A DNA stretch of 25,658 nt from a virus, in the IMG/VR virus record IMGVR_UViG_3300043429_000817, positions 1-25,658 of that record, one strand, 5' to 3'. The notes under the pieces are model-generated. The model saw only the letters and a program-made list of their open reading frames with translations. It had not been told where the DNA came from and searched no databases. Below, one piece after another: positions 1 through 24,751 of this stretch. Both the position numbers and the translations under genes were made by a program. Within the stretch, counting starts at the first letter, position 1; the number at the start of each line of letters is the position of its first letter.

Positions 1-3000
1 ACGCGACATTGTTTGCGCCAGGCGCAAAGGTGTATTGTCTGTAATCGGATGTGTTCAGTGAACTTTCACCAACACCACCAATCTTGGTCATCAATTGATA
101 TGGGCGACTATCAAAACTTGACGCATCATCTGCCGACAAGACTTTGTAGTAAACCAGAATTTCACCTTCAACAGGTTTGTATGCATCTAGGTAAACGCGC
201 AGGTCGCCCGCATCCAAACCATCTGCCAGTGTTACTTTTCTGGTGATGTATGTTGCATATCCCGGACCGCCCGAAGCAGAATCTTCACCCAAGCAGACCG
301 CAACGGCATTTGATGTCGATGTGGTATCACCTGAAATGGTGACTGTTGGTGAACCTGTGTAACCGGAACCCGATGTCAGAATTTCAACACCTGTCACGAC
401 ATTCGCGGTGACGATGGCGCGACCTGTTGCACCCGAACCGTTACCACCAGAGATTGTTACGGTGACATTACTTGCATTTGAATATGCAACACCGCCATTG
501 GTGATTACGATATCTGTGTTTGACAGACCTAGGTTGTTGATGTAGTTTTCGACAGCAATGATACTCAATCGTTCTGTGTCAATTACTGGCGACACATCCA
601 CATTGTCTGTGTCCATTGACAGTTTCAACTGGAACGAAGTGTTGGTTGCAGTCAGTACACGGCGACCGGTCGAATCGTTGAAATCATAGTTCTCACCGAT
701 TTCGAACAGCTTGAATGATTCTTGTGCGCCGGTCGATTCTGTAACAGAAGAGAATCTTGCATCAATTGTGGTGCCTGGCAGAATCAAGTTTTGTTGTGTA
801 ATTTGGAACAAATCCAACGCAACATTCGAAGTTGGTGGTTCAGACAATGCGAACACGACTTCTTTAGGTGATGTTTCGAATTTTGCCTTCATCAGTTTGA
901 ACATCAAGTCTTCTTCTTGGATTGGAGTCCAAGTTGTAGAGTTTTGTGACTTGAACAACGAACCAAGATATGGTTGAGACGAAATCAAACGGTTTGTTCC
1001 GTAAATCTTGTCACCGAAACGAGACAGATAGACGCGATACTTGAAGCTGTTTGCCAACAAGACGACCGCGTACTCTTGTCCCGGATTCAGATAAACTGGT
1101 GCTGGGAATTTGACTTCTGTGTACAACGCAGAGTCATCAAGAGGTTGCGTTGTCGCGGTATTTGCATAACGCGCACCCAATGTTGACGAATCAACTTCAT
1201 TGATATCATCAGGGTCAACAAACGCAGTTGCGAATGGGAGAATCTGAGACGCATGAGGGAAACCGTTCACGACAGGACGGATTTGTACCTGTAGAGGAAT
1301 TGTTGGGTCTTTTGTTTCAACCATCAAACGCAGACTTGTGACGAATAGACCTTTTGGATAAATCGACTGGTCAACCAAAATGGTTTGTGCCAATGGGTCA
1401 ACCCAATCTGTTGTCTGTGTTGTCTGAGTTTCGGTACGAACAACAGTTGTGGTGAATGCACGCTCATCGGTGATATCACTACGAGTCAGAACTGGTGTAC
1501 GGGTTGCAGTGACTTCGCGAGTGAACGAGTTCAGTGTACCTTGTGCGAAATAGTGTGCGTCACCGTTTGTTACGGAATCGGCAAGTTCGCCACTTGAGGT
1601 ATCAGACAAACGAACAACCTTGTCGCCAGTACGGAACTTGACGCCTGTTGCTGGGTCTGGAATGTTCAACTCACCATAAACTTCACCGCGAGTATCCGTG
1701 ACCAATTCACCGATTGAGTACACGACTGGACCTGTTGGAACTGGTGAGAAGTCTGCACTGACTTGTGCTTCGCGAGTCTGCACATTGTATGCAGAAATTG
1801 TTCTTGTCAGACCTGCACCTGTGCCATTTGCGGATGCAATGGTGATTGTCTTGCCGACCAAGAATGTCGAGTTAGACGAAATCGAATTTGCCGCAGGACC
1901 AAGAATGTTGGTGTTCAGTGTGATGGTGTTCGCGGTGATTGTATCGGTATTACCTGAGAAGTGTTCATACGACAGAATACGCGAGTTCGCACCAGCAATT
2001 ACATTGTTGGCGTTAGCAGAACGCAAGAAGGTATTGTTCGCAGTGATGAATGCAGAGTTGCCGTTTGCACCACGAATGTCAGATAGAACAATCTTAGCAG
2101 GGAACGCACGAGCGACCTTGGCATAACCAAGGATTTTGTTTGTCGCTGGTTCGAAAATTTCGACATCTTCGTTGTTGCCCGCTTCATCGACAAACAGTTT
2201 GTTTGTTCCGGTGTGTGCAAGGTTTACAATGTTCAGACGGTTGACATATTGCGATGCCTCGGTCTTGTCGAAGAATGTGTACATACGGGTTTGTGGCAAG
2301 AAACCTTTACCAATGAAACGAATCTTGCTCTTACGAACAAACGGAATCAACGAAGAGTCAATCAGTCTGTTGCCTGTTACTGTACGGATTTCCGCAGAAC
2401 CAACTGTTGTCAATACACCTGTTCTTTGTTCGATTGTATCAACAGAACGAGAAATGGTTGTTTCGACAGTATCGGTAGTTGTGATTTGGCGTCTGTTTGT
2501 AGGGTTTGCAGTTGATGTCGAAGAGACAAGTGTTGTTCCCAAAACAGTATCAACTGGTTCGCCGGTCCACACAGTTTGCCAATCGTTCCAGACAATACCC
2601 GCTTGTTGTTCAGCGGCGATGAATGCCGCACGGTCAATATCATAAGTGATTGTATCTGGTTTCTGTTCGGTGTCGAACCAGACATCCGATGCAGGAGTCA
2701 AATCCATCTGACCAAGGAACAAAGCAGAGTTGTATGGGTTTACATTTTCGGACTTCGATGCAACATTTTGTGTGACGAAGTTTTCTTCGGAATATGGAAG
2801 CAGATACAAAGGACCTTTGCGTGTTGCGCCATTGTCTGAGTATCTTTCCAGTCTGTAGTTTCTCTTGTAGAATGCCGCACGAAGTTCACGGTTGCGCGAG
2901 TCAATCGAACAACGGTAGTCTGTGTTTAGAACATCACCAACACTGTGACCTGTGAATGGGTCAGCAATGATGCCGTTCTTGAATCGTACAAGACCTGTTT

Positions 3001-5983
3001 CACTGTCGATGATTTGAACATCGTTTGCTTGCTTCTCTAGGAAGTTCAGTGCGGTGTAGTATTCGATTTTCTGGACACGCTTCTCGATATTGCCGATATC
3101 ACGCATGGTGAATCTGCGGTTATCAATGTATTGCAATTGAACATTCGCAACATTCGCGGTGTATGGCGGAACGACCAGTTTGTAGATGGTCATACCGTTT
3201 TCTTCTTCCGCAGGTTCTTTTGGTTTCAGTGCAGGAATGCCCTTGACCAATTTGATATCGCGGTCAGATGTGACGATTACTTTATCGATGCGACCCAAGT
3301 AGTATTGGAAATCTGCTTGCAAGTCAATACCAGTTGCAGGCAGAGTGATGTCTTTGTATTCACCAGCAACACCGGAAGTACCCGCTTTGCGGATTGGTCG
3401 GAAGTCGAAGCAGTCACGCAGTTCGTAAACCAGACCACTTGATGGTGAGGTGTAACGAGGAATCGAATCGTAATCTGGATAAGAAACGACATCGAAGTAC
3501 GAACCGGTTGTCACGGTTGGTGCAACTGAGTGATTGAAAATATCCGCAAAGACCACGACATTGCCCGTTGGACCAGAGAATCCCGGTTTCAGCGAAATAG
3601 AACCGTGTTCATACGAATCGTCTCTTTGACCGTTGTCAAGGACATAATTCGATGTGATATCGATTGCAGTTGCCAAGTTTGCCGTTGTGATTGCATTTGT
3701 GCCAAGGTCGTAAACCTTGCGCAGTGTGATGATATCGGCGCAGTACAAAGATTGCGGCGAGTTAGGTGTTTTCAGTGTTGCGGTATCAGCACCACGAATG
3801 AAGTTGACTTGCAGACCCGGCTGATTTACTGTCGCGGCAGGGAATACGGTGACATTCGCGTTAATCGATTGACCGCTTGAAGTTTCTACCAATGCAATAT
3901 CGGCAGTACCCAAAGATTTGGTTCTACGCAGACTGTAACCCAATTCAAGGTCATACTTGTAGTAAACTTTTGCGGTTGTGCCTGTGCCAATTCCCGGCAG
4001 TGTCAGATTAACCGTTGTCTTGACAGAAGTCGAAGAAACGGCAATTTGGTTTGTCGCGTTTGCAAGATTGACCAATTGACCGGCAGTATAAACAGAACCG
4101 CCGCCTGGTGTGACGATTTGAATCAGGAAGTTTTCAACAACATCCGACGGAGACATCGGTGTAGCATTGCCTGGCGTGGTTGTCAATCCATCTGGTGTAT
4201 CGAATGTTGCAAAGTTTACACCGTTGAAAGTTACGACCTGTGTTGCACGACCTGTGACGGTGACATTTGCAACCGAACCACCAACAACATAACTGTATGG
4301 AAGTGGGAACACCAATGTGTTCAAGTTCGATTCGTTGATGAATGCACTTTGATATGGGTCTTGCAGTGATGTGAACTTGGAAGTCGAAGAGACATCCATA
4401 GTTGCGCCAAGGGTGGTGCTTGTATTAGTCACAAAGGACTCTGCATCTCCAAACTGATAATCCAGTGAGAATTTTGTTGCAGTGGTTGGCAGACCAAAAT
4501 CGAATTCGCGGGAGACAGTTGCGACTTTTGTACTTCCGTTGTACGATTCGATTTGGCGAAGTTCGCCTACATTAGCACCATTGTGTTGTACGATACGAAT
4601 CACGACACCTTTGTAAGCATCATTCACAGAAGACGCATTGGTGTCAAGAGTAATTGTGTTTGCGGTACCGCCGGTGGCGTTCGCGCTTCTGTTACCCATT
4701 CGTACATCGAATACATGGAATTTGTAAATGCCGTTTGCGACATTGGTGACGGTATCCAAACCGGACAGACCGCTTTGATAATCTGCGGTACGAACACGCA
4801 GTTTACCAATCTCTGTTGCAGACAGAGCAGTTGTGCTGGTTGTGTTGACCGAGGCAACATTGACGCAGTGTACAGTCAAGTCGGTCAAGGTGTCCAGAGA
4901 AATAGGACCACGGACATTCGCGACATCAACATAATTTTGATAGTTGATTGTCAGGTCATAAGATGTGACTGATGCGTTGTCTTTTGCTTTTGTGTCAACA
5001 AGAACAGTTGGATATGTTTGTTCGAATTCGAAACCTTTGACATATGCCTTACCTGAACTGACCACGACATTGAAGGTGTTGACATCTGCACCATCTTTCA
5101 GTTCAATCAAGAATGGTCGAACTGTGTAGTTACCAGATTCATCAAATGTACGGCGAGCGAGTGTTTTCTCAAGCTCGTTGTACACGAAGTTTTTCATGAC
5201 GCGGGTGACCAGACCACCTTGCAGTCTTACGATTTCAACAAATGAAGAATCGTCTGTGCTTTCTAGATTTCTAGTTGCAAGTTTCAGTGCTTTCTTGAAT
5301 CGAGTTGCGCCGGGCGCTTGATAGTTCGAAGCGTACAGAGCAGGGTCAAGCAGACTGGTGTCTTGGTTTTCATCAACAACCGAGTTGTCAATTTCAAAAC
5401 CAACTCTCAGCGTTGGTGCATTTGAATAACGGTCAAGAACGATTGTCTGTGATGGGAACTTGACAAAGTAACCATCGATGAAGAAAATGCCTTCATTGAT
5501 GCTGAATGTCGAAGAATCGCCTGTCAGACTTGAGTTTGCGGTGGTTGCAGAAAGAACATCATCTTCATCGATGATTGCTTCTGTTGTGGTGAATTTTTCA
5601 CCGGTGATGTATCGAACAACCAGAGTCTTTGGTTCGGTATCAGTTGCATTGAAACCTTCGATGACATATGCACGAACGCCGCGACTTGTGTCATCGGTGA
5701 TGAATTTGCCAGTGAATGACTGGGCATTTGCGGTTTCATTTCCTGCAAGACGGATGTATTTTGCATCCGAGTTGTCATAGGTGAAGTCACCGCCGTTGAT
5801 GATGACGCCATCACGGAAGATGTGACTACCGAAGTTGGCGATTTGACGTTGCAGAATAGACTGAATCTGAGTCAGTTCTCTCGCCTGAACCGCATATCCC
5901 GGACGGAACAAAATTTGCTGAAAGTTTTTACTTTCATCAAAATCGTCAAAGTACGGTTCAATGTTGAAATCTTGGGTAGCCAT
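1..5983 (-). CDS. Giant DUF4815-type virion structural protein (partial, C-terminus beyond window)
   Basis: This frame stays open for about 1994 codons from an ATG at 5983 and runs off the window at position 1, so the C-terminus is missing. The start is supported by a GAGG ribosome binding site just upstream and by the gp8 stop 12 bases before the ATG. The N-terminus (roughly residues 5-70) carries the DUF4815 signature: a PGYAVQARELTQIQ motif followed by an IFRDGVIINGGDF stretch. This domain is known from large structural proteins of cyanophage-type T4-like phages. The rest is beta- and threonine/serine-rich without obvious enzymatic motifs. Near the visible C-terminal end, around residues 1840-1910, are glycine-rich GGVAY/GSGY modules like those in gp6, gp7 and gp8. 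It follows gp8, where T4 has gp9-gp12, so I infer a peripheral baseplate or fibre-connecting role. The exact role is unknown. Confidence 0.88.
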   Translation of the reverse strand, partial: MATQDFNIEPYFDDFDESKNFQQILFRPGYAVQARELTQIQSILQRQIANFGSHIFRDGVIINGGDFTYDNSDAKYIRLAGNETANAQSFTGKFITDDTSRGVRAYVIEGFNATDTEPKTLVVRYITGEKFTTTEAIIDEDDVLSATTANSSLTGDSSTFSINEGIFFIDGYFVKFPSQTIVLDRYSNAPTLRVGFEIDNSVVDENQDTSLLDPALYASNYQAPGATRFKKALKLATRNLESTDDSSFVEIVRLQGGLVTRVMKNFVYNELEKTLARRTFDESGNYTVRPFLIELKDGADVNTFNVVVSSGKAYVKGFEFEQTYPTVLVDTKAKDNASVTSYDLTINYQNYVDVANVRGPISLDTLTDLTVHCVNVASVNTTSTTALSATEIGKLRVRTADYQSGLSGLDTVTNVANGIYKFHVFDVRMGNRSANATGGTANTITLDTNASSVNDAYKGVVIRIVQHNGANVGELRQIESYNGSTKVATVSREFDFGLPTTATKFSLDYQFGDAESFVTNTSTTLGATMDVSSTSKFTSLQDPYQSAFINESNLNTLVFPLPYSYVVGGSVANVTVTGRATQVVTFNGVNFATFDTPDGLTTTPGNATPMSPSDVVENFLIQIVTPGGGSVYTAGQLVNLANATNQIAVSSTSVKTTVNLTLPGIGTGTTAKVYYKYDLELGYSLRRTKSLGTADIALVETSSGQSINANVTVFPAATVNQPGLQVNFIRGADTATLKTPNSPQSLYCADIITLRKVYDLGTNAITTANLATAIDITSNYVLDNGQRDDSYEHGSISLKPGFSGPTGNVVVFADIFNHSVAPTVTTGSYFDVVSYPDYDSIPRYTSPSSGLVYELRDCFDFRPIRKAGTSGVAGEYKDITLPATGIDLQADFQYYLGRIDKVIVTSDRDIKLVKGIPALKPKEPAEEENGMTIYKLVVPPYTANVANVQLQYIDNRRFTMRDIGNIEKRVQKIEYYTALNFLEKQANDVQIIDSETGLVRFKNGIIADPFTGHSVGDVLNTDYRCSIDSRNRELRAAFYKRNYRLERYSDNGATRKGPLYLLPYSEENFVTQNVASKSENVNPYNSALFLGQMDLTPASDVWFDTEQKPDTITYDIDRAAFIAAEQQAGIVWNDWQTVWTGEPVDTVLGTTLVSSTSTANPTNRRQITTTDTVETTISRSVDTIEQRTGVLTTVGSAEIRTVTGNRLIDSSLIPFVRKSKIRFIGKGFLPQTRMYTFFDKTEASQYVNRLNIVNLAHTGTNKLFVDEAGNNEDVEIFEPATNKILGYAKVARAFPAKIVLSDIRGANGNSAFITANNTFLRSANANNVIAGANSRILSYEHFSGNTDTITANTITLNTNILGPAANSISSNSTFLVGKTITIASANGTGAGLTRTISAYNVQTREAQVSADFSPVPTGPVVYSIGELVTDTRGEVYGELNIPDPATGVKFRTGDKVVRLSDTSSGELADSVTNGDAHYFAQGTLNSFTREVTATRTPVLTRSDITDERAFTTTVVRTETQTTQTTDWVDPLAQTILVDQSIYPKGLFVTSLRLMVETKDPTIPLQVQIRPVVNGFPHASQILPFATAFVDPDDINEVDSSTLGARYANTATTQPLDDSALYTEVKFPAPVYLNPGQEYAVVLLANSFKYRVYLSRFGDKIYGTNRLISSQPYLGSLFKSQNSTTWTPIQEEDLMFKLMKAKFETSPKEVVFALSEPPTSNVALDLFQITQQNLILPGTTIDARFSSVTESTGAQESFKLFEIGENYDFNDSTGRRVLTATNTSFQLKLSMDTDNVDVSPVIDTERLSIIAVENYINNLGLSNTDIVITNGGVAYSNASNVTVTISGGNGSGATGRAIVTANVVTGVEILTSGSGYTGSPTVTISGDTTSTSNAVAVCLGEDSASGGPGYATYITRKVTLADGLDAGDLRVYLDAYKPVEGEILVYYKVLSADDASSFDSRPYQLMTKIGGVGESSLNTSDYRQYTFAPGANNVA

Positions 5984-5995
5984 CTAAGCCTCTAG

Positions 5996-7564
5996 TTAAA
6001 AATTAATTGTCAATCTGATGTTTTCTGCTTGTCCGTCTGCACGGTCAGTTTTTGGATCGTTTTTGACGAAAATGATATCGCCAGTTCCCGGTTCAAATTC
6101 TGGTGTTGTGTAACTTTCAACCGCTCTTGATACCAGTGATGTGTTGCCTTTTAACAGACTACCGACGGTTGGTGTACCCAATACATTGATAAGTCTGATT
6201 GTGTTTGTTTCTTGCACATGGACTGTGCCTTGGAATGTGAAATTTTCCAGTGAACTGCCTTGATAGACAATTTCGTTGTCTGTGTACGCTGTGCCCGGAA
6301 TTACAGTGATATTGGTTGTTTGTGAAATAACACTGTTCGCATTCGCATAATCCACACTTGAGTTACTTCCGTATTTATGCGGTGCCGCCAGTAGTCCGTA
6401 TTGACGGAATGAGGTGTCAACTGAAATTATCCCACCTTCGGAAGAGTCTGGGGCACCAATTCGTGTTGCAATCATTACGGTATTCGCGGCAAGTTCTCTT
6501 GCAGGATTATATCCGTATCCATACTTAGGTGCAAGGACGGCGCGGACATTTGCGCCAGTACCGGAACCATGTATGATTGCATTTGCGTAAGAATATCCAG
6601 AACCTCTGGATGTGATTCGTACTTTTTCGATAGTATCGTTCAGTAGGGAAATGGATGCAGAGTAATCGTCTGAACCGTCACCTTTAACTTCAAGTCTTGT
6701 AAACACATCGATGTTTTCACCGACACTGCCTGTACCAATTGTTGGTATCGACAGATTGACGCGGTTATAGGCCGTATCGACACCGGTGATATATGTTTCG
6801 GAAACCAAGTTGCTTCCGGAAATTGCCATGTTGTTTTTGACATTTGAAGTCGAGTTCAAAGTCAGTACGGTACAACCAGTTGCGAATGTTGATGCAAGAG
6901 TCAGAGTAGAATCAAAATACCCTGTTCCAGAATCTTCGACCACAATTTCTGCAATTGAACCGTCAAGCAGGTTGTTCTGACTACTTGAATATTCCAAGTC
7001 TGCAACACTTGTCGGAACAGGCATCCATTCGTCAGTCAGGAACTTGTTCGAAGGTTTGATGTTGTACATATACTTCCAAACATAGTTGTCTGGCGTGTCG
7101 ATGAACCCGTTTGAATTCGACAGGTAGTTGCCCGATGGTTGAATTGTCGATGGTGTCGCGCCGTCATTGTGTACGCACAAATAAACATCAAGTGTGTCGG
7201 TAATGACATACATCGGTTTGCTGTTGCCTGTGGTCTGCACCAAGGTGTTTGCAGGAATCGTGTCATCAAAACTCTTGTAGATGGTGTTCGCGACCCAAGG
7301 TCTGCGTGGAATCACCAGTTCAACATCACTAGTCACCACTTTCTTTGCGGCAAACATCTGACTCCAGACTTCTTTCTCTGTCGCGGTTCCGTCTGTAATG
7401 TTCGGAATATCGGCATCCGAGTTTGCATACGGAATATCATTACCCAAAAAGATGTAATGTGGTCTGTGTGGATAATTTGACGCGAAACCAGCATCAGAGA
7501 ACGAATCTCTGAATCGTACCGCGTTGTCATAAGACAATTTGTATGATGTATATGTGTTTGCCAT
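5996..7564 (-). CDS. 8: Baseplate wedge protein gp8
   Basis: This 522-residue protein matches T4 gp8, a dimeric wedge component that binds gp6, gp7 and gp10, at both ends. Near residues 35-92, YIFLGNDIPYANSD and then DVELVIPRRPW align with the T4 FGRSEPW and AVIPRRDW segments. Residues 158-185 (DNYVWKYMYNI, then MPVP) match T4 DGYVWEYLFEI and VPWP. The C-terminal AENIRLTINF matches T4 EEINILFTF. T4 gp8 is 334 residues; the excess is largely an insertion at about residues 195-345 containing GTGY and GSGY glycine-rich modules, a beta-rich filler also seen in neighbouring gp6 and gp7. The gene follows gp7 after a 19-base gap holding a late promoter box six bases before the ATG. No good ribosome binding site is visible. 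Confidence 0.93.
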   Translation of the reverse strand: MANTYTSYKLSYDNAVRFRDSFSDAGFASNYPHRPHYIFLGNDIPYANSDADIPNITDGTATEKEVWSQMFAAKKVVTSDVELVIPRRPWVANTIYKSFDDTIPANTLVQTTGNSKPMYVITDTLDVYLCVHNDGATPSTIQPSGNYLSNSNGFIDTPDNYVWKYMYNIKPSNKFLTDEWMPVPTSVADLEYSSSQNNLLDGSIAEIVVEDSGTGYFDSTLTLASTFATGCTVLTLNSTSNVKNNMAISGSNLVSETYITGVDTAYNRVNLSIPTIGTGSVGENIDVFTRLEVKGDGSDDYSASISLLNDTIEKVRITSRGSGYSYANAIIHGSGTGANVRAVLAPKYGYGYNPARELAANTVMIATRIGAPDSSEGGIISVDTSFRQYGLLAAPHKYGSNSSVDYANANSVISQTTNITVIPGTAYTDNEIVYQGSSLENFTFQGTVHVQETNTIRLINVLGTPTVGSLLKGNTSLVSRAVESYTTPEFEPGTGDIIFVKNDPKTDRADGQAENIRLTINF

Positions 7565-7570
7565 AACTTG

Positions 7571-7578
7571 TATTTATA
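7571..7578 (-). promoter_or_regulatory. T4-type late promoter box before gp8
   Basis: TATAAATA on the minus strand (TATTTATA on plus) is an exact match to the T4 late promoter -10 box recognised by gp55-type sigma. It lies in the short gp7-gp8 gap, with only six bases (CAAGTT) before the gp8 ATG. With T4 spacing, transcription would start at or within a base or two of the start codon, giving an essentially leaderless gp8 message. The exact match and its intergenic location support it; activity is inferred. Confidence 0.7.
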
Positions 7579-7583
7579 TCGTG

Positions 7584-10349
7584 TTACAGGATGATTATCA
7601 TCTGATTGTTGGAATTAGATAGGAAATTCTGTGTGACGGTGATTTCCGTGTTACTTACGATTGCATTGACGGTGCGAATCTCACCATTAATCGCGACATT
7701 GCTACCAACAACCAGAATTCCTTTCGTGTTCGCGACTTCAAACTTGGTGTTGATACCGGTCACAATGTTGGAATTGGTGTTGATGCTGACCGTACCAGAA
7801 GGCACAAGACCTGCGGTTCTATTCGTTGGTTCGATTTCAATCCAGAAATTAGTTCCGTCAAAGGGACCCAATACCGAAATCGCGGAGTTTGAATAATAAT
7901 CTACTGATGTGCCGGTGAATCCATAGACCACATTTCCAGATTGGGTTCTCTTATCGACATCGGTGTACTTGAATGCAAACAAAGGTTCTGTGTTTGGTCT
8001 TGTTGAAATTGGGTTTGAAGGTATCGCATTGGCTCGATAAACCGTGATGGTACCAGTTTTGTCTGTGTTTCTGTCGTAATAAGATTCAAATTTGTCGCCG
8101 TAAAATACTCTATTATTACTGGTGAAACCTGTGTTACCAAAATAGTAAAACGCACCAAGTTCAATTCTAGATACCGAACCGGAATAGTTATTCATGAAAT
8201 CCATGATGCCATCGGTATCAAGTCCCGGCCCACTTAACAAATTATCAAACGCGAAGTTGTATGAAATTGCTTGGAAGGAAGAAGGTTCCAAATATGACGC
8301 TTGTACCGGCACAATGTTTGATTTGACTCGTTTGATGTTTTCATCAACAGTGTACTGACTCAGTGCCTTGGCGCCGATTGGGTGTACAAGTTCTTTGAAG
8401 ATTTCTTTGTACTTACTGAATTCGGTTTTGCACGAAATGACATATGAATAATTCACATAGTATTCCGCACCTTCGATTCGGATTTCTTCCGTTGACAACA
8501 GACCTTCCGCAGAGGTCCAGCGGCCAGGCAATCTGTTGTATGTGGTGAAGATTTCGGCTGATGCCAATGCGTTGCCGTCACCCGAAGCAGTCAGGTCAAC
8601 TTCTGGTACTGAACTGTAACCTCGGCCGCCTTCGATGATGCGAATTGTTTGAATCTCGCCCGCGCGGAGTCCGCCAGGCACGATTGGTACGAGCGATTCG
8701 CCGTCACCCAATACAGATGCGACATACAGAACTGCACCAACACCGTTTGCAGATGTGACAGAAGAAACAATCGGGAAATATCCCGGTTGATATGCCGAAC
8801 CGCCGTTGGTGACAAGAATATTTGTGATGGCGCCGTTTGCACTGACATGACTGACTTCGGCGGTCAAACCGGAACCAGAGAATGCCATTGGATGATTTGT
8901 GAAGTTCAGTGCGTCACCCACTTCATATCCAGAACCACCTGATGTGATGCCGATTTGACCGATGATACCAAGGTCTTTCAGATAAATGGTATTTGCACCG
9001 GAACCTGCGACAGCTGGCGATTTTACATCAAGAACAGGATTGACCAGTGCGGCAGTTGCAACACTGATGTTTGTGGTCAGTATCGAACCGACTGTAATGC
9101 TGTTTGCAGTCAATGCCTGTGAAATGACAGTATTGATGTTTGCAGTATTTGAGAACCCGTAATCTACGGCATCCAATGTCACTGCACCATAGGCATCAAT
9201 AGTGTCAATAAAGAATGTCACGGTATTCGGTGTGAATTCGCCTGATGAATTGACCGTCAAAACAGATGCGTTGAATACGGTGTTACTGATTCCTTCGGCA
9301 CTGATTACCGCGCCTGGCTGGAAGCCGGCACCGGCATTGACAATGCTCAATTCAGAAATCAGACCAGATGCGACTCTACTGACAATTGCGGTTGCAGGAA
9401 CAATTGACAATCCGCGAATGATAACTGGGTCGCCTACTGCATAACCTGAACCACCATCGATGATGTTGATTTCCTTGATGCGCGATAGCGCATTCATTCG
9501 GACATTCACCAGTTCGTTGTTCAGGTAAATCTGTGTCAGGAATTCTTCGCCTTCAGAGAAAGTTCCTTGTACACTGTTCGGGTCAACAAACACATCATAG
9601 TACGAAAGATTGGTCGAAAGTTTTCTCTCAACTGATTCGATGATGGCATATGCACCAGAGGTGACACCTGTGAGTTTTCGACTTGCCAGTGATGATGCGT
9701 CAAATGATGTGTATGTGATTTTGACTGTTGCATTTGCCGCAGGCGCAGTTGTGAATACCACTTTCTGGTATTCTTTTCTGAAGGTATAATTCGTGTCTTC
9801 GACTTGAAGTACATTGTTCACATAGACAGCAAACTCTGTAGATTCTAGAATTTGATTCAGGTAGAATTCGGTTTCTATTCCGTCTGCGGTAACTTCGGTC
9901 TGAATGTTATCAGCAATCAGAATTGAACTGTCTCTTTTCCACTTACCGTCTGATGCGCGAAGAATGTAGTTTCGTGGATATGTTACCGTGACTTCATCAT
10001 CAAACAACAGTCTGAAAAGAAATTTGAATGATTCTTCTGAACCTTTTGCCAAGTATATCGGCAGAGCATTCTTAATCAGGAATTCTTTTGTGACCATTAC
10101 ATCTTTCGGCAAGAACGAAAGGAATGTGTTAAAGAATTGCTCTTCGAACAAATCTAACGATGAGTCCACATCAGATAGGTGACGCAGTGCTTTCGATTTG
10201 GTCACCAAATCATTGTCGTTTGTTCCTTGTTGTTCTTCCAGAAATCTGTAGTATGCCTGAATAAACGAGACAAACTTTGGATAGTCTGCTCGTACAAAAT
10301 CAGGTACCTGTTCTGGAACAAGTAATGAAATTTTTTCGTTAGTTGTCAT
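7584..10349 (-). CDS. 7: Baseplate wedge protein gp7-like
   Basis: This 921-residue protein lies between gp6 and gp8, the gp7 position in T4. Its N-terminal 150 residues (LVPEQVPDFVRADYPKF, then IYLAKGSEESFKFLFRLLF and DDEVTVTYPRNYILRA) resemble the C-terminal core of T4 gp7, where I recall STKGIEASYKFLFKVLYNEEVEIEI. A later YVNYSYVISCK...YKEIFKELVHPIGAKAL segment (about residues 650-685) resembles the T4 RSYYVMKIKS...VIRFVHPVGFGF stretch. The large N-terminal beta domains of T4 gp7 (1032 residues) are absent. Between the two matches are at least five glycine-rich beta modules (GGSGYAVGD, AGAGFQPG, GGSGYEVGD, GGSAYQPG, GGRGYSS). gp7 joins gp6, gp8, gp10, gp25 and gp53 in the wedge. The start overlaps the gp6 stop in a TAATG junction, suggesting coupled translation. 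Confidence 0.85.
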   Translation of the reverse strand: MTTNEKISLLVPEQVPDFVRADYPKFVSFIQAYYRFLEEQQGTNDNDLVTKSKALRHLSDVDSSLDLFEEQFFNTFLSFLPKDVMVTKEFLIKNALPIYLAKGSEESFKFLFRLLFDDEVTVTYPRNYILRASDGKWKRDSSILIADNIQTEVTADGIETEFYLNQILESTEFAVYVNNVLQVEDTNYTFRKEYQKVVFTTAPAANATVKITYTSFDASSLASRKLTGVTSGAYAIIESVERKLSTNLSYYDVFVDPNSVQGTFSEGEEFLTQIYLNNELVNVRMNALSRIKEINIIDGGSGYAVGDPVIIRGLSIVPATAIVSRVASGLISELSIVNAGAGFQPGAVISAEGISNTVFNASVLTVNSSGEFTPNTVTFFIDTIDAYGAVTLDAVDYGFSNTANINTVISQALTANSITVGSILTTNISVATAALVNPVLDVKSPAVAGSGANTIYLKDLGIIGQIGITSGGSGYEVGDALNFTNHPMAFSGSGLTAEVSHVSANGAITNILVTNGGSAYQPGYFPIVSSVTSANGVGAVLYVASVLGDGESLVPIVPGGLRAGEIQTIRIIEGGRGYSSVPEVDLTASGDGNALASAEIFTTYNRLPGRWTSAEGLLSTEEIRIEGAEYYVNYSYVISCKTEFSKYKEIFKELVHPIGAKALSQYTVDENIKRVKSNIVPVQASYLEPSSFQAISYNFAFDNLLSGPGLDTDGIMDFMNNYSGSVSRIELGAFYYFGNTGFTSNNRVFYGDKFESYYDRNTDKTGTITVYRANAIPSNPISTRPNTEPLFAFKYTDVDKRTQSGNVVYGFTGTSVDYYSNSAISVLGPFDGTNFWIEIEPTNRTAGLVPSGTVSINTNSNIVTGINTKFEVANTKGILVVGSNVAINGEIRTVNAIVSNTEITVTQNFLSNSNNQMIIIL

Positions 10350-12391
10350 TAACTAGAACTTTTTATTAGTGAGACTTCTACAGCAGATGGGTCAGTATCA
10401 TCAACGGTCAGAATTGTGTTGCGCACAGATTGTATCAATCCTTCATCTGATTCCACGGTTACTCTCAAGAATCCGTCAAACGAATCTACGCTTTCGATTG
10501 TGATGTCATTGATTGTAATCAGACCGGTTTCGTAGTTGACTGTGCCTGCATTGTCATTTACGATTTTTCTTTCCGCGTTGATATCGTAGTAAACGGTACG
10601 CAGGTTGCCGATTTTCGAATCGATAACCGCAGTTGCCGATGCACTCTTACCTGTCGCGTCTGTGATTGCCACGACCGCGCGGGAATAATCGGTACCTCTC
10701 TTGGTCAATTCGATTGACTGAATTCTTCCGTTCACAACAGTTGCTTTTGCTTCTGCGCCTGTACCATCACCTGTGATTGTGATGATTGGGTCTGATGTGT
10801 AATCATAACCGGGATTTGCGACAAGGATTTCTGAGATACCTGTGAAAGATTGTGGAACTTCTTCCAGTGTCACATTGCGCAAGGCATCTGCGGAATCAAG
10901 TACACCAAATGTTGTGGTTTGCAGTCTATCAAGTGAGTTTGTACCGCGCGAAAGTGGTACACCGAAATTCAACACATAAGATGACTTGATGCCAATCTTT
11001 GGTTCAAATCTCTTTTGCAGTTTCAGTGTGACATCGTTACCCAAAACAGCGTTGTCAATCGAGTCGATTCTTTCTTGAAGTTTCGAAATGACAACCGATG
11101 AATTGAAATCGTTGAGATAGATGTCGCGGTATTCGTACACCTGCGAGGCAGCAAGAATCTTCAATGCCTCTTGTGACAGAATGGTTTTCTTCGGGTCGTA
11201 TTTGACCTTGATACCAAACAACAGGTACAAGTAGTCTGGGTCACGAATCTCGGTAGAGACGGTCACAACAGATTTTGGAACAATTGTTTCATCGATGATT
11301 CTTTGTTTCTCGGTTTGCGAGAAGAAATAACCGTCTTTTGGTTTCAGTGAGATAAACATCTTACCATAAACTGGTGGACTTTCTTCTTCACCGCCCCAGA
11401 CGGAAATTGCATCGATTGTTGGATATGCCTGCTTCAACAAAACTTCATAGTCTTTTTTAGTGACCAATCGGTTCTGTGTAGAAAATTGTGCGATTGCATT
11501 GTACTTGATTGAGTCAACTGATTCGCGGTTGGAACCACCAGCGGCAGGTTCAACAGTCTCGACAACAAAATTGACCGAGTTCAACACATAATCGACAGGT
11601 GTGAATTCAGAGACTTTGTTTGCCAATGCACCTGATGTGACAAGATATGTCATGTTGATGATTGCGCCGTCTTCAAGTGCCTTACCGATTACACCGTCGC
11701 CGAAACGAATTTGGAAAAATTGGTCTCTGTTTTCTTCAAGGAAGTAAACTGCGGAATCTTGGGTGATATTCAGCACATCGGTGACAAGTTCATAAACTTC
11801 GGTCGATGTGTTACTTGCCGAGGTTACGGAAACTCTCAGTGTGCTGGTGTCCACATTCTTGCTTGGAATGATGAACACTGCATTAGGATTCTGTGAGACA
11901 GAGTTGACATAACGGAACGCAGTCAACGCACCTTCATAGATTTCCAGATTTTCGAAAATGTATTCACTACCCACGGCAGAAACGGTCACATCTTCCAACA
12001 ATACAAAATTGTAAGAGATGTTGTCCAACAGACTTGACCTGAATTTTGTTCCGCGTGATAGGGTCAGTTGTGAATTCGGTGTTGCAGGTGTTGTCAGATT
12101 GACAACCGCCTTGGCGGCTCTTGACGAATGCGGAATGTACCCTAGAGTCTTGGCGTGACCGACCACCGAATCGCGCAGAATCGCGGTATCCATGAATGCC
12201 TCATTGACTGCCATGTTCAAGTAGTAGGCATTGTAGTGCGTGTTGTATGCCAACACATCAATCAGGACATTCAGACCCGAACCTTCAAAGTCATAATCCG
12301 AAAACTCGGACTGTGCCTTCAAAAAGGTCTTGAGATTTTGCTTGATTGTGTCAAAATCAAGGTCGGTAATAATTTTCTGGTTGGTCGCCAT
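10349..12391 (-). CDS. 6: Baseplate wedge protein gp6
   Basis: At 680 residues this is close to T4 gp6 (660). The N-terminal region, including DYDFEGSGLNVLIDVLAYNT and then AVNEAFMDTAILRDSVV, matches T4 DYDFEGSRLNVLCDLLAYNT and its continuation almost residue for residue. The central region (FRFGDGVIGKALEDG and TKKDYEVLLKQAYPTIDAISVWGG) is the baseplate J-like fold shared with contractile injection systems. gp6 forms the dimeric inner ring that holds the six wedges together and drives sheath contraction. The last 180 residues carry glycine-rich modules (NPGYDYTSDP, GDGTGAEAKA, RGTDYSRA) not recalled from T4 gp6. It starts one base after the gp25 stop and ends in a TAATG overlap with gp7, consistent with an operon in assembly order. 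Confidence 0.96.
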   Translation of the reverse strand: MATNQKIITDLDFDTIKQNLKTFLKAQSEFSDYDFEGSGLNVLIDVLAYNTHYNAYYLNMAVNEAFMDTAILRDSVVGHAKTLGYIPHSSRAAKAVVNLTTPATPNSQLTLSRGTKFRSSLLDNISYNFVLLEDVTVSAVGSEYIFENLEIYEGALTAFRYVNSVSQNPNAVFIIPSKNVDTSTLRVSVTSASNTSTEVYELVTDVLNITQDSAVYFLEENRDQFFQIRFGDGVIGKALEDGAIINMTYLVTSGALANKVSEFTPVDYVLNSVNFVVETVEPAAGGSNRESVDSIKYNAIAQFSTQNRLVTKKDYEVLLKQAYPTIDAISVWGGEEESPPVYGKMFISLKPKDGYFFSQTEKQRIIDETIVPKSVVTVSTEIRDPDYLYLLFGIKVKYDPKKTILSQEALKILAASQVYEYRDIYLNDFNSSVVISKLQERIDSIDNAVLGNDVTLKLQKRFEPKIGIKSSYVLNFGVPLSRGTNSLDRLQTTTFGVLDSADALRNVTLEEVPQSFTGISEILVANPGYDYTSDPIITITGDGTGAEAKATVVNGRIQSIELTKRGTDYSRAVVAITDATGKSASATAVIDSKIGNLRTVYYDINAERKIVNDNAGTVNYETGLITINDITIESVDSFDGFLRVTVESDEGLIQSVRNTILTVDDTDPSAVEVSLIKSSS

Positions 12392-12826: not shown

Positions 12827-13648
12827 TTACAAATATTTCTCCAGAAGTCCTGCCCTTCCGGTTTTTCTGATTACTTGTCTTTCAGACTGTCCAACGGTGT
12901 TCAACTTGCGCATAGTCTGGATTTCATTGGTCAACTGAACGGAATTGTAATAAAAATTCTCATCGTGGTTGCGTCTCTCATCCATCAATGATGAGACGGA
13001 CTGTATATCGGCAACAATCGTATTGACTGTGTTTGATTCAAGATTTGAATACCAGATGCCGCCGATATTTGCATACATCAAGTTCGCACTTGCAATGGTG
13101 TTCTGGTGCGTGACCAGTGTGTTGTACTTGTCCAACAATTCATCATCGATATACAGACTGGTGAAGTGTCCCATGGTCGGCGCGGTGTTCGTGATACCGT
13201 CTGTCTGATACATGATTGTTCCGATGAAAGTCGCAACAGAAATTGCTTTCTCGTAAGTCATGATGTCTGTGTTCGCATTTGCGGTTTCAGGTGCATCTTT
13301 GACTCGCGACATTCTATCGGTGTGGTCAAGGTATGACAGTGCCACATTCTGCGCCACGGTATTCGCGGCAACAACGACACCTTGCAAGTCACCAGTTGCG
13401 CCAGAAGTGGTCTTGATTGTCTCGCAAATCGTAATCAGATTGCCGGTGACATTCGCAACAGGATTGACATAGTAAGTAGATGTGTTGCTTGTATCGACCT
13501 GTGTGTTTGCCAAATCATCGACCTGCCAGTCCTGCAAATACTTCGGCATCATTTTCAGACGCACGATTGTTTCTTGCGGAAGTTCAGGCACATCAGTTTC
13601 AGTTGCCTGTGGAAAACTGTATCCCAATCTTTCAAATATACCTGCCAT
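12827..13648 (-). CDS. Uncharacterised baseplate-region protein, 273 residues
   Basis: I do not recognise this protein. It starts with MAGIFERLGYSF, preceded by a GAGG ribosome binding site that overlaps the spike gene stop. It ends with a basic RKTGRAGLLEKYL tail. The middle is asparagine/threonine-rich and likely mixed helix and strand (VANVTGNLITICETIKTT; LYIDDELLDKYNTLVTHQNT). The region near residues 230-260 (RRNHDENFYYNSVQLTNEI) looks helical. No signal peptide, membrane segment or catalytic motif is visible. Its place between the spike and gp25, inside a tightly packed baseplate operon, suggests a structural or assembly part of the hub-wedge interface. T4 has the small genes 5.1-5.4 in the equivalent position, but I see no resemblance to the PAAR protein gp5.4. 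Confidence 0.9.
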   Translation of the reverse strand: MAGIFERLGYSFPQATETDVPELPQETIVRLKMMPKYLQDWQVDDLANTQVDTSNTSTYYVNPVANVTGNLITICETIKTTSGATGDLQGVVVAANTVAQNVALSYLDHTDRMSRVKDAPETANANTDIMTYEKAISVATFIGTIMYQTDGITNTAPTMGHFTSLYIDDELLDKYNTLVTHQNTIASANLMYANIGGIWYSNLESNTVNTIVADIQSVSSLMDERRNHDENFYYNSVQLTNEIQTMRKLNTVGQSERQVIRKTGRAGLLEKYL

Positions 13649-13656
13649 TTTCTACC

Positions 13657-14712
13657 TCATAACATAGGAATTGTTGGTGGACCCGATGCGCTCGGGTGAC
13701 TGTGGAAGTTGTACTTCAAAATATTCACGACATCGGTGACATGGAAGAATTGACCGAATGAACCCGACACCAAACCTGTGCAAGTGAATGACAGAGGTGT
13801 TGCGACAGGAATACCTGCGGAGAATCCACCAAGTTCAGTCACAAAACCGTAGATACCGGCACTCATACCAAGACCAGCATCAACGCGCTTGTCTGCGGTA
13901 ATATTTTCGGTCGATGACAATGCACCTTCAACGAATGTATCTGCCTTGATTTTGAATTGACCGTTGCCGATGCCACCACCAATTGCAACGGACATTGTGC
14001 CACCCATGATGTCCGAACCGACAGAAATATCCATTTTGCCGTCAGTATCGACACGGAAATTCTTCTTCACCAGAATGTCATAATTTCCTTCGACAATCTG
14101 GTAACAATCGCCACGGACAATTTCGTATTTGTTGCCTTTGATTTCTGTTGTCGCGTCACCATCGATTGTGATGTTGCAACGACCACTGATTTTGACATTG
14201 TTGTTTTTCGCGACAATCGTGAAACTGTCACCTTGAATCTTGTGTACTTCATCACCGTTTGGGTGCCACTCAAAGAATGTTCCTGTGCGGTGTTGCATAC
14301 GAACTCTTTCGCGGCCCGGCGTATCGTCAAACTCCCAAAAATGTCCTGATTCACTCTGCGTTACACTGTTGAACGGATAAATCGGTGGGTTATCTGGATT
14401 TGCGGCAGAAGGTGGTTCAATCCAACCACTGCCCGATGGTTGAGGTGGAAGTCTCCACGAACTGTCGGATTCTGCCATTTGTGCGGCAGTGTTCTCGACC
14501 ATGTTTGCGTTTGATACGACCGCTTGTTGACCAACACGAATAATTTCTTCTGCAAGGTTGAACTGATTGATTTCTTGGTCAACCGATTCGGTATCAAGAC
14601 GCACGCTGACCGACTCGACACCAGTTTCACCTTCAAGGGTGTTGATTGGTGGAATCGAAACAAACGAATTCGCTTCTTGTAATACTTGGTCTAAGGTTTT
14701 TTCTTCTGCCAT
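13657..14712 (-). CDS. Tail spike, gp5 C-terminal beta-helix as a separate gene
   Basis: The preferred start is the ATG at 14712 (351 residues), two bases after the gp5 hub stop, with GGGG eight bases upstream. An in-frame GTG at 14727 would use up that ribosome binding site. After an acidic linker (to about residue 110), SESGHFWEFDDTPGRERVRM at 120-139 matches the T4 gp5 segment ESGHIQEFDDTPGQERYRL, where the C-terminal part of gp5 begins. Residues 150-245 are a run of short strands (KISGRCNITIDGDATTEIKG, EIVRGDCYQIVEGN) typical of the triple-stranded intertwined beta-helix of the membrane-piercing needle. The C-terminus carries H337-S-H339 followed by a proline-rich end; such HxH motifs bind iron at the spike tip in P2 gpV-type proteins. 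There is no lysozyme domain. Confidence 0.9.
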   Translation of the reverse strand: MAEEKTLDQVLQEANSFVSIPPINTLEGETGVESVSVRLDTESVDQEINQFNLAEEIIRVGQQAVVSNANMVENTAAQMAESDSSWRLPPQPSGSGWIEPPSAANPDNPPIYPFNSVTQSESGHFWEFDDTPGRERVRMQHRTGTFFEWHPNGDEVHKIQGDSFTIVAKNNNVKISGRCNITIDGDATTEIKGNKYEIVRGDCYQIVEGNYDILVKKNFRVDTDGKMDISVGSDIMGGTMSVAIGGGIGNGQFKIKADTFVEGALSSTENITADKRVDAGLGMSAGIYGFVTELGGFSAGIPVATPLSFTCTGLVSGSFGQFFHVTDVVNILKYNFHSHPSASGPPTIPML

Positions 14713-14714
14713 TA

Positions 14715-16238
14715 TTAATATCCCCACTCAGGGCTAACTGTCGTTGCACTTCTTTGTTCCGATTCATCGAACATCGAATCGTAAACATTTCCTAATTGAA
14801 TTGCGGCGGCCTCGATTGATTCGATGTCGCCATATGTTTCTGTTGTTGCAATTGTTTGCAGGTAATCAGGTAGACCTTCAAGACTTTGCAAGTATTCTCC
14901 CGCAAATTGAATCTGGTCCAGACCTTGTTCTAACTCATCAATTTCGTTTGTCAGGTCTTTGACATCTGCAAGAACCTGATTCATCGCATCTGCGCCACCA
15001 AGTTGACCTGCCAATTCTTCTTGAATGAATTCGACAAGGTATGATTTGATGATATTGAGAATTCTCTCAAGACATTCTTTCAACACTCTTCTGAAACGGT
15101 CTGGCAGATTTCTAATCCAGTCAACAATCAATCTTGCCAACTGAACTGTCGTGACAACCAACTTCACGAAGTCTTTGATTTTCTCAACGACCTCAAGAAG
15201 GTCTTGAATAAATGTATTGATTTGCTGGACTTTCTTGGTCCAGTATGCAATTCTTCCTGACGGGTCAGCACCCAACAATGCATTGATTGCTTTTGCGATT
15301 GCTCGCGATACCTTGATTAGAACCTGACGCACATACTTGTTCGCACCGATTCGTTGACGAATTTCCAAATCCGACGGACAGACGTGCATCAATCGGTCGT
15401 TCATGAACTCGATGCCGGTGTTTGCCAAAATACCTCTTGCAAGACGCGAACCTGTTGGTTCATCCGAAGTCGGTGTTTTTGCATACTTCGGTACGCGCAC
15501 ACGGTACTGATAGTTGTATGCGTACTGTTTCGTATTTAGATTGAGACCCCAAGACGAACCAAGTGTAACTTTTGTTGCGCCTCTTGGTGAGACTGTACCG
15601 GCACGAACTGATTCTTTCAATGCGGCATCGGCATACTGTTCTGCTTTTGCGGTGTCATCGGGATATTTGATTTTTTCCTTTGCAAGGAAATCGGAATATT
15701 CAGGATAATCCTCTTTTCGATAATCGATGACAAGAACAACATCGCCATCTGCGGCGGCAGTAGATGCCAGTTGCGCAGAGGTGTAAGGTCCTTGAGAATT
15801 TTCAGTGACGATGACAGTTGTTGATGTGTCTGCATTTGTGACTGTGCCTGCCTCGGCATTTTCGATTTGCTTTTGCAGTTGCGCATCCAGATAGTTCTTC
15901 TGGCTAGGTGTCAATGTCTGTGATGTGTAGATGTCATCTGTTTCAATGCCGGGAAAATATCCCATGACAGTTCGAATCTGTGCCGATTCACCGTCTTGGA
16001 AGAAACCGAATACCCAGTCACCTTCTTTTGGTAGTGATTGTGATTTGCTACCATTGACAGCAGAGACCATCTGTGCCCACGGAAGTTTTTCGCGAGGCAA
16101 AAGACCGGTGTCAAATGAGTCAACACCAATGATACGGACACGCACACGGTTTAACTTGGCGGGGTCGAATCTATCTTCGACAACACCCACCCACCATACG
16201 AACTTTTGCGAACCGTAAAAATCTTGTGAAAGTGCCAT
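14715..16238 (-). CDS. 5: Baseplate hub gp5 OB-fold protein lacking lysozyme and spike
   Basis: Residues 12-95 (KFVWWVGVVEDRFDPAKLNR, then KLPWAQMV and WVFGFFQDGESAQIRTVMGY) closely match the N-terminal OB-fold of T4 gp5 (NLNWFVGVVEDRMDPLKLGR). In T4 this domain seats the needle on the gp27 trimer. T4 gp5 continues into lysozyme and beta-helix. Here the protein instead continues into an unrelated region: a DYRKEDYPEYSDFLAKEKIK segment near 170-190, then from about residue 310 to 470 a long amphipathic helical stretch (AIAKAINALLG, VEKIKDFVKLVVTTVQLARL, LKECLERILNIIKSYLVEFI, DLTNEIDELEQGLDQIQ). It ends SPEWGY. The start overlaps the upstream hub gene stop as TAATG, and the spike gene follows after two bases, consistent with co-assembly. 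Confidence 0.9.
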   Translation of the reverse strand: MALSQDFYGSQKFVWWVGVVEDRFDPAKLNRVRVRIIGVDSFDTGLLPREKLPWAQMVSAVNGSKSQSLPKEGDWVFGFFQDGESAQIRTVMGYFPGIETDDIYTSQTLTPSQKNYLDAQLQKQIENAEAGTVTNADTSTTVIVTENSQGPYTSAQLASTAAADGDVVLVIDYRKEDYPEYSDFLAKEKIKYPDDTAKAEQYADAALKESVRAGTVSPRGATKVTLGSSWGLNLNTKQYAYNYQYRVRVPKYAKTPTSDEPTGSRLARGILANTGIEFMNDRLMHVCPSDLEIRQRIGANKYVRQVLIKVSRAIAKAINALLGADPSGRIAYWTKKVQQINTFIQDLLEVVEKIKDFVKLVVTTVQLARLIVDWIRNLPDRFRRVLKECLERILNIIKSYLVEFIQEELAGQLGGADAMNQVLADVKDLTNEIDELEQGLDQIQFAGEYLQSLEGLPDYLQTIATTETYGDIESIEAAAIQLGNVYDSMFDESEQRSATTVSPEWGY

Positions 16239-22420: not shown

Positions 22421-24751
22421 ATGGCGTCAATCTCCCAATTGTTAGGTGGCAAGAAAAACCAGGATATATCCGATGTGCTGGCAGAAGCTATTTTCGGGAA
22501 AAAATCAAAACCGAAAAAGACAACAACACCAACTGCCCAAAAAGGGTCCGCAACTGTTACTGATGAGTCGCAGATTCCTATCTTACGTTCGATTGCCGCG
22601 AATGCGAGAATTTCTGCAAAGAACTCTATGGCACTGCCGGGAATTCTTCAGCAGACAAACATCATGCAGAAGAATATCGCAAAGTTGGTTCGTCTGCAAG
22701 GCGCGAATCCTACTAACAAAGCTGATGCCTTCTTCTCATCTGCCAAGTTCAGAGAGAATGCCTACGAATCCGCATTCCGTAAAGAATCCGGCGCTGGCGG
22801 TTCGACTTCACCGAAGAAAGAAGATGGTGGCGGAGAAAAGAAAGGAAAAACACTAACCGGTTTTATTGATTCTCTATTGGGAATATTCACCTCATCATTC
22901 ATCAAGAAAATGGTGGTTGGTGGTGTTCTTGTCGCCGGTCTGACCAAGTACTTCAAAGACCCAGTTTTCAAAAAACAAATTGATGAAATGCTGACTGCAT
23001 TCAGAAGAGCATTCATCAATGACAAAGGTTGGGAACTAATCAAGAAAGGTGCCTCAGATGTAGGAAATGTTCTTATTCTGTTGGGCGTTGCTCTCGTTGG
23101 TTTCAAACTTGCACTGAACTATCTTGCAGGTCGTATGTGGGCTGCCGGTGCGGGCATGGGTCGCGGAATGCCGATGCCAAATACACCGGGCCGCGGCGGA
23201 AAACCAGGCAAGCCGGGAAAACCTGGTGCGCCGGCGCCACGAAGAATGGGAACCGGAATTATGGGCGCGCTGACATCCTTGGGTCTGGGTTTTGGTGCTT
23301 CATATTTGATGAGTGATTCCGGCGGAGATTCGGGCGCGACAACAACTACACCAACAGGCGCAGAACAAGTATCCAATCAATCATCGGGTTCAAATCTTGG
23401 TTTGCTTGGCGGTCTTGCGGCACTACAGACAGTAAACACCGGCATCGGCGGTATCAACATGGTTTCGACCGTGATGAGTCGCAAAAAAATTGATGGTAAA
23501 GACCTTGTTTCGAAATCAACAATCAATAAGTGGATTAACAAAATTGGAAAAATCAGGTCCAAAAACTGGGGTGCGCGTGTACTAGGAAAACTCAGAAAAC
23601 GCCTGATGATGAGTAAACTCGGCAGAAAAATCCTACAGAAAGCAATTATCTTTATTGCAGGACTTGTTGCACCGGGACCGGGGTGGGTTGCATCGATTGC
23701 CGCCGCGGCATTCTTTTTGTGGGATGTTTATTGGTTGTACACAATTCTTGAAGAAATCATTCAAGATATTGAGGCAGAAGATGCCGAAGCAGAAGGTGCA
23801 ACAAGCGCATCACGACAAGCGAATTATGACGAAGAAGGACAAAGCAACACATCGTCTCGATTCAAAACCGCGCTGGCCGCGGCAACTGCGATACTGCCGG
23901 GACCTATGGGCATGGCGACTGCTACATCATATTGGGCAGGCCTCGCCGCCGGCGGAAACCTTGCTGATAAATTGGGCATGACTGCTGGCCAAGGTGCATA
24001 CAAAGACATTAACTTTGCGCAAGTCAAAGATAAAATCATTGCGGGTGAAGGCACTGCAAAAGGTGGAAGAAATCCTTATGAGACTGTTTACGGTTTCGGA
24101 CAATTTGGTTCACCATCCAAGAAATTGACCGAAATGACGATTGCTGAAGTGCAAGCATTCCAATCCCAACTGATTAACGCAACACGCGGTAAAGTCAAAG
24201 GTGTAGATTCAAACGAAGGCACCGGTGCTGTTGGTGCATTTCAGTTCACCAAGGAAACACTCGCAACTGCCGCGCAGGCGATTTACGGACAGAATTGGCA
24301 AAAGGTGAAATTCACACCAGAAGCACAAACTGCCATGGCAGAATATATTTTCGATATCTCTAAAGGTAGTAATCGAAGATTGAGTAAAAGATGGGCATTC
24401 TTTAGTGACCTTGATCCGGATTACTCAAGTCTCCGCGCACAAGGTGCCAGTGGCGGCAGCGTACCATATTTGAGTCAAATTCAAGTACCACCGCCGGCAC
24501 CACCAGTACCAGCGCCGGCAAAAAATAAGACTACACCATCTGTTGATGGAAACATCTTCAAAGCACCTGTCGCGGCAAATCTAGGAAAATCTGGTGCGCC
24601 AGCAACAAACTATGTCGTGATTGACCAAAGTCAGACAACAGTTGGTGCGCAATCACAATCCGCGGCGTCACCAGCGGCACAAACAATGCCAAGTGTGTAC
24701 AATCCAGAGCAATTCAATTTGTCTAACATAATGAGAGCATCTGCAATGTAA
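22421..24751 (+). CDS. Tape-measure-like hub/tail lysin with lysozyme-like domain
   Basis: 776 residues. The N-terminal 120 residues include a helical segment (SIAANARISAKNSMALPGIL, MQKNIAKLVRLQG). Hydrophobic, potentially membrane-inserting segments lie at about 148-178, 213-238, 278-297 and 408-447. A collagen-like glycine/proline stretch (GRGGKPGKPGKPGAPAPRR) is at 257-275. Residues 530-665 look like a lysozyme or transglycosylase: KIIAGEGT with E543 as candidate catalytic acid, YETVYGFG, and GTGAVGAFQFTKETL at 601-615, resembling the SSAVGRYQF motif of such domains. A proline-rich linker and a low-complexity tail follow. Position right after the gp26/gp51-like pair suggests the tape measure (T4 gp29 role), carrying the muralytic activity that gp5 lacks here. 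A separate virion lysin is the alternative. Ends TAATAA before a terminator. Confidence 0.8.
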   Translation: MASISQLLGGKKNQDISDVLAEAIFGKKSKPKKTTTPTAQKGSATVTDESQIPILRSIAANARISAKNSMALPGILQQTNIMQKNIAKLVRLQGANPTNKADAFFSSAKFRENAYESAFRKESGAGGSTSPKKEDGGGEKKGKTLTGFIDSLLGIFTSSFIKKMVVGGVLVAGLTKYFKDPVFKKQIDEMLTAFRRAFINDKGWELIKKGASDVGNVLILLGVALVGFKLALNYLAGRMWAAGAGMGRGMPMPNTPGRGGKPGKPGKPGAPAPRRMGTGIMGALTSLGLGFGASYLMSDSGGDSGATTTTPTGAEQVSNQSSGSNLGLLGGLAALQTVNTGIGGINMVSTVMSRKKIDGKDLVSKSTINKWINKIGKIRSKNWGARVLGKLRKRLMMSKLGRKILQKAIIFIAGLVAPGPGWVASIAAAAFFLWDVYWLYTILEEIIQDIEAEDAEAEGATSASRQANYDEEGQSNTSSRFKTALAAATAILPGPMGMATATSYWAGLAAGGNLADKLGMTAGQGAYKDINFAQVKDKIIAGEGTAKGGRNPYETVYGFGQFGSPSKKLTEMTIAEVQAFQSQLINATRGKVKGVDSNEGTGAVGAFQFTKETLATAAQAIYGQNWQKVKFTPEAQTAMAEYIFDISKGSNRRLSKRWAFFSDLDPDYSSLRAQGASGGSVPYLSQIQVPPPAPPVPAPAKNKTTPSVDGNIFKAPVAANLGKSGAPATNYVVIDQSQTTVGAQSQSAASPAAQTMPSVYNPEQFNLSNIMRASAM

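Follow-up and report, generated by a model that had tools for sequence, protein, structure and literature searches.

We conclude that the gene at the left end of the window, a complete IMG/VR record of 25,658 nucleotides (IMGVR_UViG_3300043429_000817), encodes the VrlC/DUF4815 protein, known as the 'tripod' or, in phage A511, the 'pyramid', of a T4-like phage with a probably double-layered baseplate; we put the probability of this reading at about 85%. The placement of VrlC in such baseplates has already been published. In the parts of PMC7029224 consulted, VrlC is one of five proteins common to 35 SAR11 phage and cyanophage genomes, and a double-layered baseplate is predicted; an excerpt of PMC6630229 makes the same prediction for VrlC in an Agrobacterium phage. 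The gene is therefore a new member of a known family, and the protein is ordinary for its phage group. The find is mostly an ordinary one; its modest extras are a conserved small gene that accompanies the DUF4815 gene and the separation from the parts of phage T4. The partnership with the small ORF across phage families and the split against gp11 and gp12 are perhaps the less known points.

The original prediction described a frame that is open across the left quarter of the window and continues past it, and this is what the ORF listing shows: an ATG start, 1994 codons without a stop and an open 3' end where the frame runs off the contig. Its length, together with the Pfam, PHROG and tblastn matches spread along it, argues against a chance frame. 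The gene is nearly complete and cut by the contig end, since the five closest relatives in the alignment extend only 47–50 residues further at the C terminus; the predicted full length is about 2,040 aa. The lost end corresponds to a conserved tail, and most other rows of a 15-row family alignment close with a KDLRxIAL-like motif. The giant size that had been singled out at first is not special. The 27 relatives counted as full length have 1841–2515 aa, members of the comparison panel described below reach 2421 aa, and VrlC is common to the 35 genomes mentioned above.

The assignment to DUF4815 (PF16075) made in the original prediction was confirmed, with a Pfam match at E 7e-66 and 223.2 bits against a cut-off of 30 and a phrog_358 match in PHROGs at E 0 and 1202.7 bits. 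When the protein was compared with 50,697 phage records by tblastn, 1,510 matched. The best matches, at about 37% identity across 60% of the query, were the genes named VrlC in two Pelagibacter phages, Mosig and HTVC008M; next came cyanophages, rhizobial phages and others, with further matches in phages of Salmonella, Klebsiella, Vibrio, Staphylococcus, Listeria, Bacillus and Enterococcus. Two of the DUF4815 records inspected carry no family name; the others fall in Kyanoviridae, Pootjesviridae, Ackermannviridae and Herelleviridae. None of the 50,697 records covered 80% of the query in a single place and none reached 60% identity, which makes the protein a divergent member of a wide family; megablast of window positions 1–25000 against phages returned no match. 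Mosig EXVC030M and HTVC008M are phages distinct from the window virus, and their VrlC proteins (2045 and 2001 aa) fall in the same length class, with gp8 upstream and a small ORF after the gene. The DUF4815 profile also matched Synechococcus elongatus, one of 14 control genomes.

Table 1. Features of the predicted tripod gene and of the wedge genes upstream of it, in window coordinates.
Feature	Position	Strand	Basis or remark
VrlC/DUF4815 protein, predicted baseplate tripod	2..5983	(-)	1994 aa; C-terminus lacks about 47-50 aa
N-terminal conserved part, residues 1-391	4811..5983	(-)	phrog_877 match
Largest insertion, residues 351-888 (538 vs 139 in phage 812)	3320..4933	(-)	segment arithmetic
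Small predicted domain in insertion, residues 430-509	4457..4696	(-)	phage Chi tail tip 8vjh_B
Best DUF4815 stretch, residues 878-1107 (profile 363-568 of 570)	2663..3352	(-)	Pfam
Probable lectin-like/CBM domain, residues 1512-1711	851..1450	(-)	phrog_5986, Cwp84 match; exact bounds inferred
C-terminal stretch, residues 1782-1894	302..640	(-)	phrog_460 match, GxGY...P.V.I motif
gp8 baseplate wedge, 522 aa	5996..7564	(-)	Pfam, PHROG; immediately upstream of DUF4815 gene
gp7-like wedge protein, 921 aa	7584..10349	(-)	PHROG, T4 gp7 alignment
gp6 baseplate wedge, 680 aa	10349..12391	(-)	Pfam, PHROG
gp25 baseplate wedge, 134 aa	12393..12797	(-)	Pfam, PHROG

A solved relative exists. Searched against the PDB with phmmer, the protein matched one sequence, the 1152-aa DUF4815 chain of Staphylococcus phage 812 (ORF65; PDB 9euf, 9eui, 9euj and others; 15 entries, 81 chains). 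Chain 9euf_0 aligned in four collinear segments covering both halves of the protein (E 8.9e-44), and the family profile retrieved the same phage 812 chain at E 4.4e-202. Window residues 157–350 pair with residues 71–257 of the phage 812 chain, and residues 1615–1705 with its residues 854–946. By segment-coordinate arithmetic, the excess of the window protein over the phage 812 chain between and after the four segments amounts to 85, 399, 263 and about 131 residues, the last figure including the approximately 48 residues cut off by the contig end. Nearly all of the roughly 890 extra residues (about 2,040 aa against 1152) thus fall in four stretches, the largest of about 400, and the window differs from phage 812 also in its T4-like genome. 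In the phage 812 host-range mutant K1 (locus L015, 6992–10449), the annotation divides the DUF4815 gene into two ORFs of 619 and 531 aa.

The fold was predicted with AlphaFold for residues 1–1115 (mean pLDDT 77.6) and 1080–1994 (mean pLDDT 74.5), with low-confidence stretches in both models. Structure prediction by domains had been proposed as a check of the original prediction, and it placed both halves with phage 812 baseplate chains. These were the only chains returned by Foldseek at E up to 0.001 (three per half model, identity 12–15%), and VIA-align paired the C-terminal half with 9euf_0 (Z 18.9, 370 residues, 3.7 Å) and the N-terminal half with 9euj_G (Z 16.2, 333 residues, rmsd 11.0), at 21–27% identity over the paired residues of the phage 812 homologue. 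Against the pre-contraction chain, the N-terminal half reached only Z 7.8, below a phage Chi tail-tip chain (8.5); this value and the rmsd of 11.0 indicate that the parts match and the arrangement does not. TM-scores were low (0.11–0.29) for the same reason. The protein thus shares homology and fold with a resolved tripod/pyramid baseplate chain, with a domain arrangement that was not reproduced. The phage Chi match involves residues 430–509 and part of 8vjh_B (Z 8.5, 74 residues, rmsd 2.7) and is only just over the usual background. Within the best DUF4815 stretch, the model places a long helix at residues 960–988.

The C-half model also matched residues 347–495 of Cwp84 (Z 11.3 and 10.5 over 136 residues), and residues 1512–1711 probably form a lectin-like/CBM domain. 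In the sections of PMC11406892 consulted, the lectin-like domain of Cwp84 is a match of Bacillus phage homologues, and the homologues of A511 gp106, tabled as 'Tail fiber/VrlC', carry CBM folds. Matches of the C-terminal half to complement C3/C5, macroglobulin and other beta-sandwich chains (Z 6.8–8.6) were set aside as common-fold background; a mycobacteriophage Bxb1 tail-tip chain was matched as well (Z 9.5, rmsd 9.0). Closer to the C terminus, the GxGY...P.V.I motif is common to VrlC (residue 1872) and the gp7-like protein (residue 575), its two occurrences comparing with a mean of 0.03 in 500 residue shuffles, a figure that is illustrative only for a pattern picked post hoc. We rejected the 'head closure Hc2' label of phrog_460 as a shared-domain artefact, the profile matching VrlC, gp8, gp6 and the gp7-like protein alike; taken at face value, the phrog_460 matches at 302–640 and 5996–12391 would mislead annotation.

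The genes upstream belong to the baseplate wedge and follow one another on the minus strand in the order gp25, gp6, gp7-like gene and gp8, after which the DUF4815 gene begins. All 66 IMG/VR contigs with enough upstream DNA carry a gp8 homologue just before the DUF4815 gene, at a distance of 4–88 bases in 65 contigs and 368 in one, and we infer that gp8 is the docking neighbour of the VrlC protein. The match of T4 gp8 to PF25691, the wedge-3/tail-fibre-network family, was below threshold (E 3.4e-4, 21.1 bits against a cut-off of 27).

The DUF4815 protein of phage 812 is likely the 'tripod' of phage K and the 'pyramid' of A511. This correspondence (phage K gp148, A511 gp106) comes from papers and from the gene order in the relatives 812-K1 and WIL-1: the order in 812-K1 identifies gp148, called the tripod protein in an excerpt of PMC9241854, with the DUF4815 gene. 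The Listeria phage WIL-1, relative of A511, has a DUF4815 protein of 1151 aa, smaller than that of the window. Downstream of its gene come an ORF of 73 aa and then a receptor-binding protein; the gene just upstream, labelled 'baseplate wedge', has 522 bases and falls short of a full gp8, whereas the window has gp8. According to the passages of PMC9863714 consulted, trimers of A511 gp106 form pyramids that are joined to the wedge protein gp105 via gp104, and the upward pyramids turn to the cell wall once the receptor-binding protein has bound. By analogy with A511 and phage K, three VrlC copies would form a tripod on the wedge arms near gp8. Upon the first contact, head-facing tripods would swing round to the cell, where carbohydrate-binding-like domains could bind surface glycans and contribute to setting off sheath contraction; the four longer stretches may add receptor-contact or spacer domains. 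A trimer at the baseplate edge that reorients on contact is known, in these sources, for the homologues only, and Gram-negative hosts may be approached otherwise than A511 and 812 approach theirs. The assignment provides a protein often recorded as hypothetical or 'virulence-associated' with a clear name and a structural template, and points to the likely baseplate design that such phages use for host finding.

The DUF4815 gene has the same map place after gp8 as gp9–gp12 of T4, and the original prediction proposed that it replaces this set. To assess the proposal we used a panel of 19 phages, comprising 15 complete ones picked for DUF4815 and four T4-type controls (T4, KVP40, Aeh1 and RB49). 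DUF4815 was present in 15/15 picked phages, by construction, and in 0/4 controls. Conversely, gp11 was found in none of the 15 and in all four controls, as was full-length gp12, apart from one weak 60-position match in phage OC (E 3.8e-4). The N-terminal domain of gp9/gp10 was present in all controls and also, as partial matches, in four of the 15 (Mosig, Syn9, P-SSM4 and Melnitz), encoded upstream of gp8 in each; a further match in Mosig, at another place, is weaker. In Mosig this gene lies between the gene in the gp7 position and gp8, where the window has only 19 bases; it is absent from that place in the window and could lie outside the contig. A tblastn search with T4 gp11 matched 1,364 records, with no cyanophages among the ten commonest names or the 40 matches listed. 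Finally, gp9–gp12 directly downstream would speak against replacement, and no match to them was found among the downstream ORFs scanned in near relatives (10 per library, five contigs). The proposal is partly supported: within the panel, the expected absence is seen for gp11 and full-length gp12 and, in four of the 15, not for the gp9/gp10 N-terminal domain.

A stricter version, a true one-gene replacement in which each function of gp9, gp10, gp11 and gp12 passes to the giant protein, the anchoring of long and short tail fibres among them, is unlikely. It accords with the mutually exclusive distribution of DUF4815 and of gp11 and full-length gp12 in the panel, but 4/15 phages keep the gp9/gp10 N-terminal domain and relatives have separate tail-fibre-like genes downstream. 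Moreover, no part of the protein matches gp9–gp12 among the matches listed (Pfam, PHROG, Foldseek), though a remote relation may exist; no sequence relation between DUF4815 and the T4 set was detected, and the two were not found together as a set in the panel.

We consider it less likely still that the protein is mainly a long adhesin or tail fibre and not a baseplate part. The lectin-like match of the C-half model and the annotation of the WIL-1 homologue as 'tail fiber protein' would suit such a function, against which stand the collinear homology to a resolved baseplate component, the fixed place next to gp8 in 66/66 contigs and the occurrence of DUF4815 in several phage families. The 'long fibre connector' offered in the original prediction is likewise not the most fitting term, the solved homologue being a part of the phage 812 baseplate and the A511 homologue, in the consulted text of PMC9863714, a trimeric pyramid. 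Least probable is that VrlC stands in for T4 gp7. PMC7029224 proposes this for pelagimyophages, and an excerpt has gp7 absent and says that it 'appears to be substituted' by VrlC. For the present phage we set this replacement aside, since the gp7 position is occupied by a gp7-like gene; its 921-aa product aligns over residues 10–122 with T4 gp7 648–758 (E 2e-6, single comparison) and matches PHROGs 17744, 26741 and 2885, which T4 gp7 also matches weakly. Judged by its sequence, the window does not fit the gp7 statement of that paper. The N-terminal alignment of gp7 with cyanophages was poor.

The tripod protein appears to have a small companion. The window's own downstream side lies beyond the contig end; in near relatives, the DUF4815 gene is followed by a small coiled-coil ORF and then by tail-fibre-like genes. 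The small ORF came next in 57 of the 58 contigs with at least 230 bases downstream, counted within the next 900 bases at E 8.4e-7 or better with a profile from twelve named phages only; in L068, the only exception, the reading frame is interrupted. The 54 copies picked span 60–85 aa; the ORF bears the motif RDxxSxA and, at the C terminus, a coiled coil (examples: L027 16021–16251; L026 about 15984–16211). A second profile, made from IMG/VR copies only, was run on 1,402 ORFs (ATG, at least 30 aa) from 16 loci. Its top 14 matches were the ORFs right after DUF4815 in 14/15 panel phages, and in the fifteenth, BUCT-ZZ01, a small ORF with another start codon was identified by eye; the T4 locus gave no match over the inclusion threshold with this profile.

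Scores from this second profile were weak for the two Herelleviridae small ORFs (E 0.0033 and 0.0072), on which the link of these ORFs to the others rests, and phage 812-K1 has a weakly scoring small ORF with a similar RD motif after its DUF4815 gene. The N-terminal motif alone gave no significant value in Herelleviridae (0.26 and 0.93), P-SSM4 (0.45) or OC (0.77). The phrog_473 'virion structural protein' profile matched the small ORFs of the IMG/VR copy tested and of HTVC008M, Syn9, phiM9 and PM10, and a phmmer search of the PDB with the phage 812 small ORF (E up to 0.1) returned no match. In A511, the same map place is held by gp107, which an excerpt of PMC11406892 calls a putative chaperone and suggests as a possible binding domain.

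Tentatively, and at slightly less than even odds, these observations suggest that two edge kits are mounted on a shared wedge of gp25–gp6–gp7–gp8 type: either T4 gp9–gp12, or DUF4815 with an obligate small partner (about 60–85 aa, RDxxSxA motif, coiled coil, A511 gp107 position) whose role may be to cap the tripod or make it trimerise; in the T4-like branch, inserted domains would have made the tripod up to two times larger. How tripods assemble could be tested cheaply through this conserved partner gene.

Several observations concern neighbouring genes. Downstream of VrlC in L027 (17449–22170), several ORFs of 108–115 aa lie between Gly-rich tail-fibre-like genes, and those at 17449 and 18189 match phrog_1276. 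Within the window, a 273-aa ORF (12827–13648) had no confident match, and a 776-aa ORF (22421–24751) had only a short match to phrog_6126, 'virion structural protein'. The gp5 hub/lysozyme gene is split into two overlapping genes, one for the N-terminal part (13657–14727) and one for the C-terminal trimerisation part (14715–16238).
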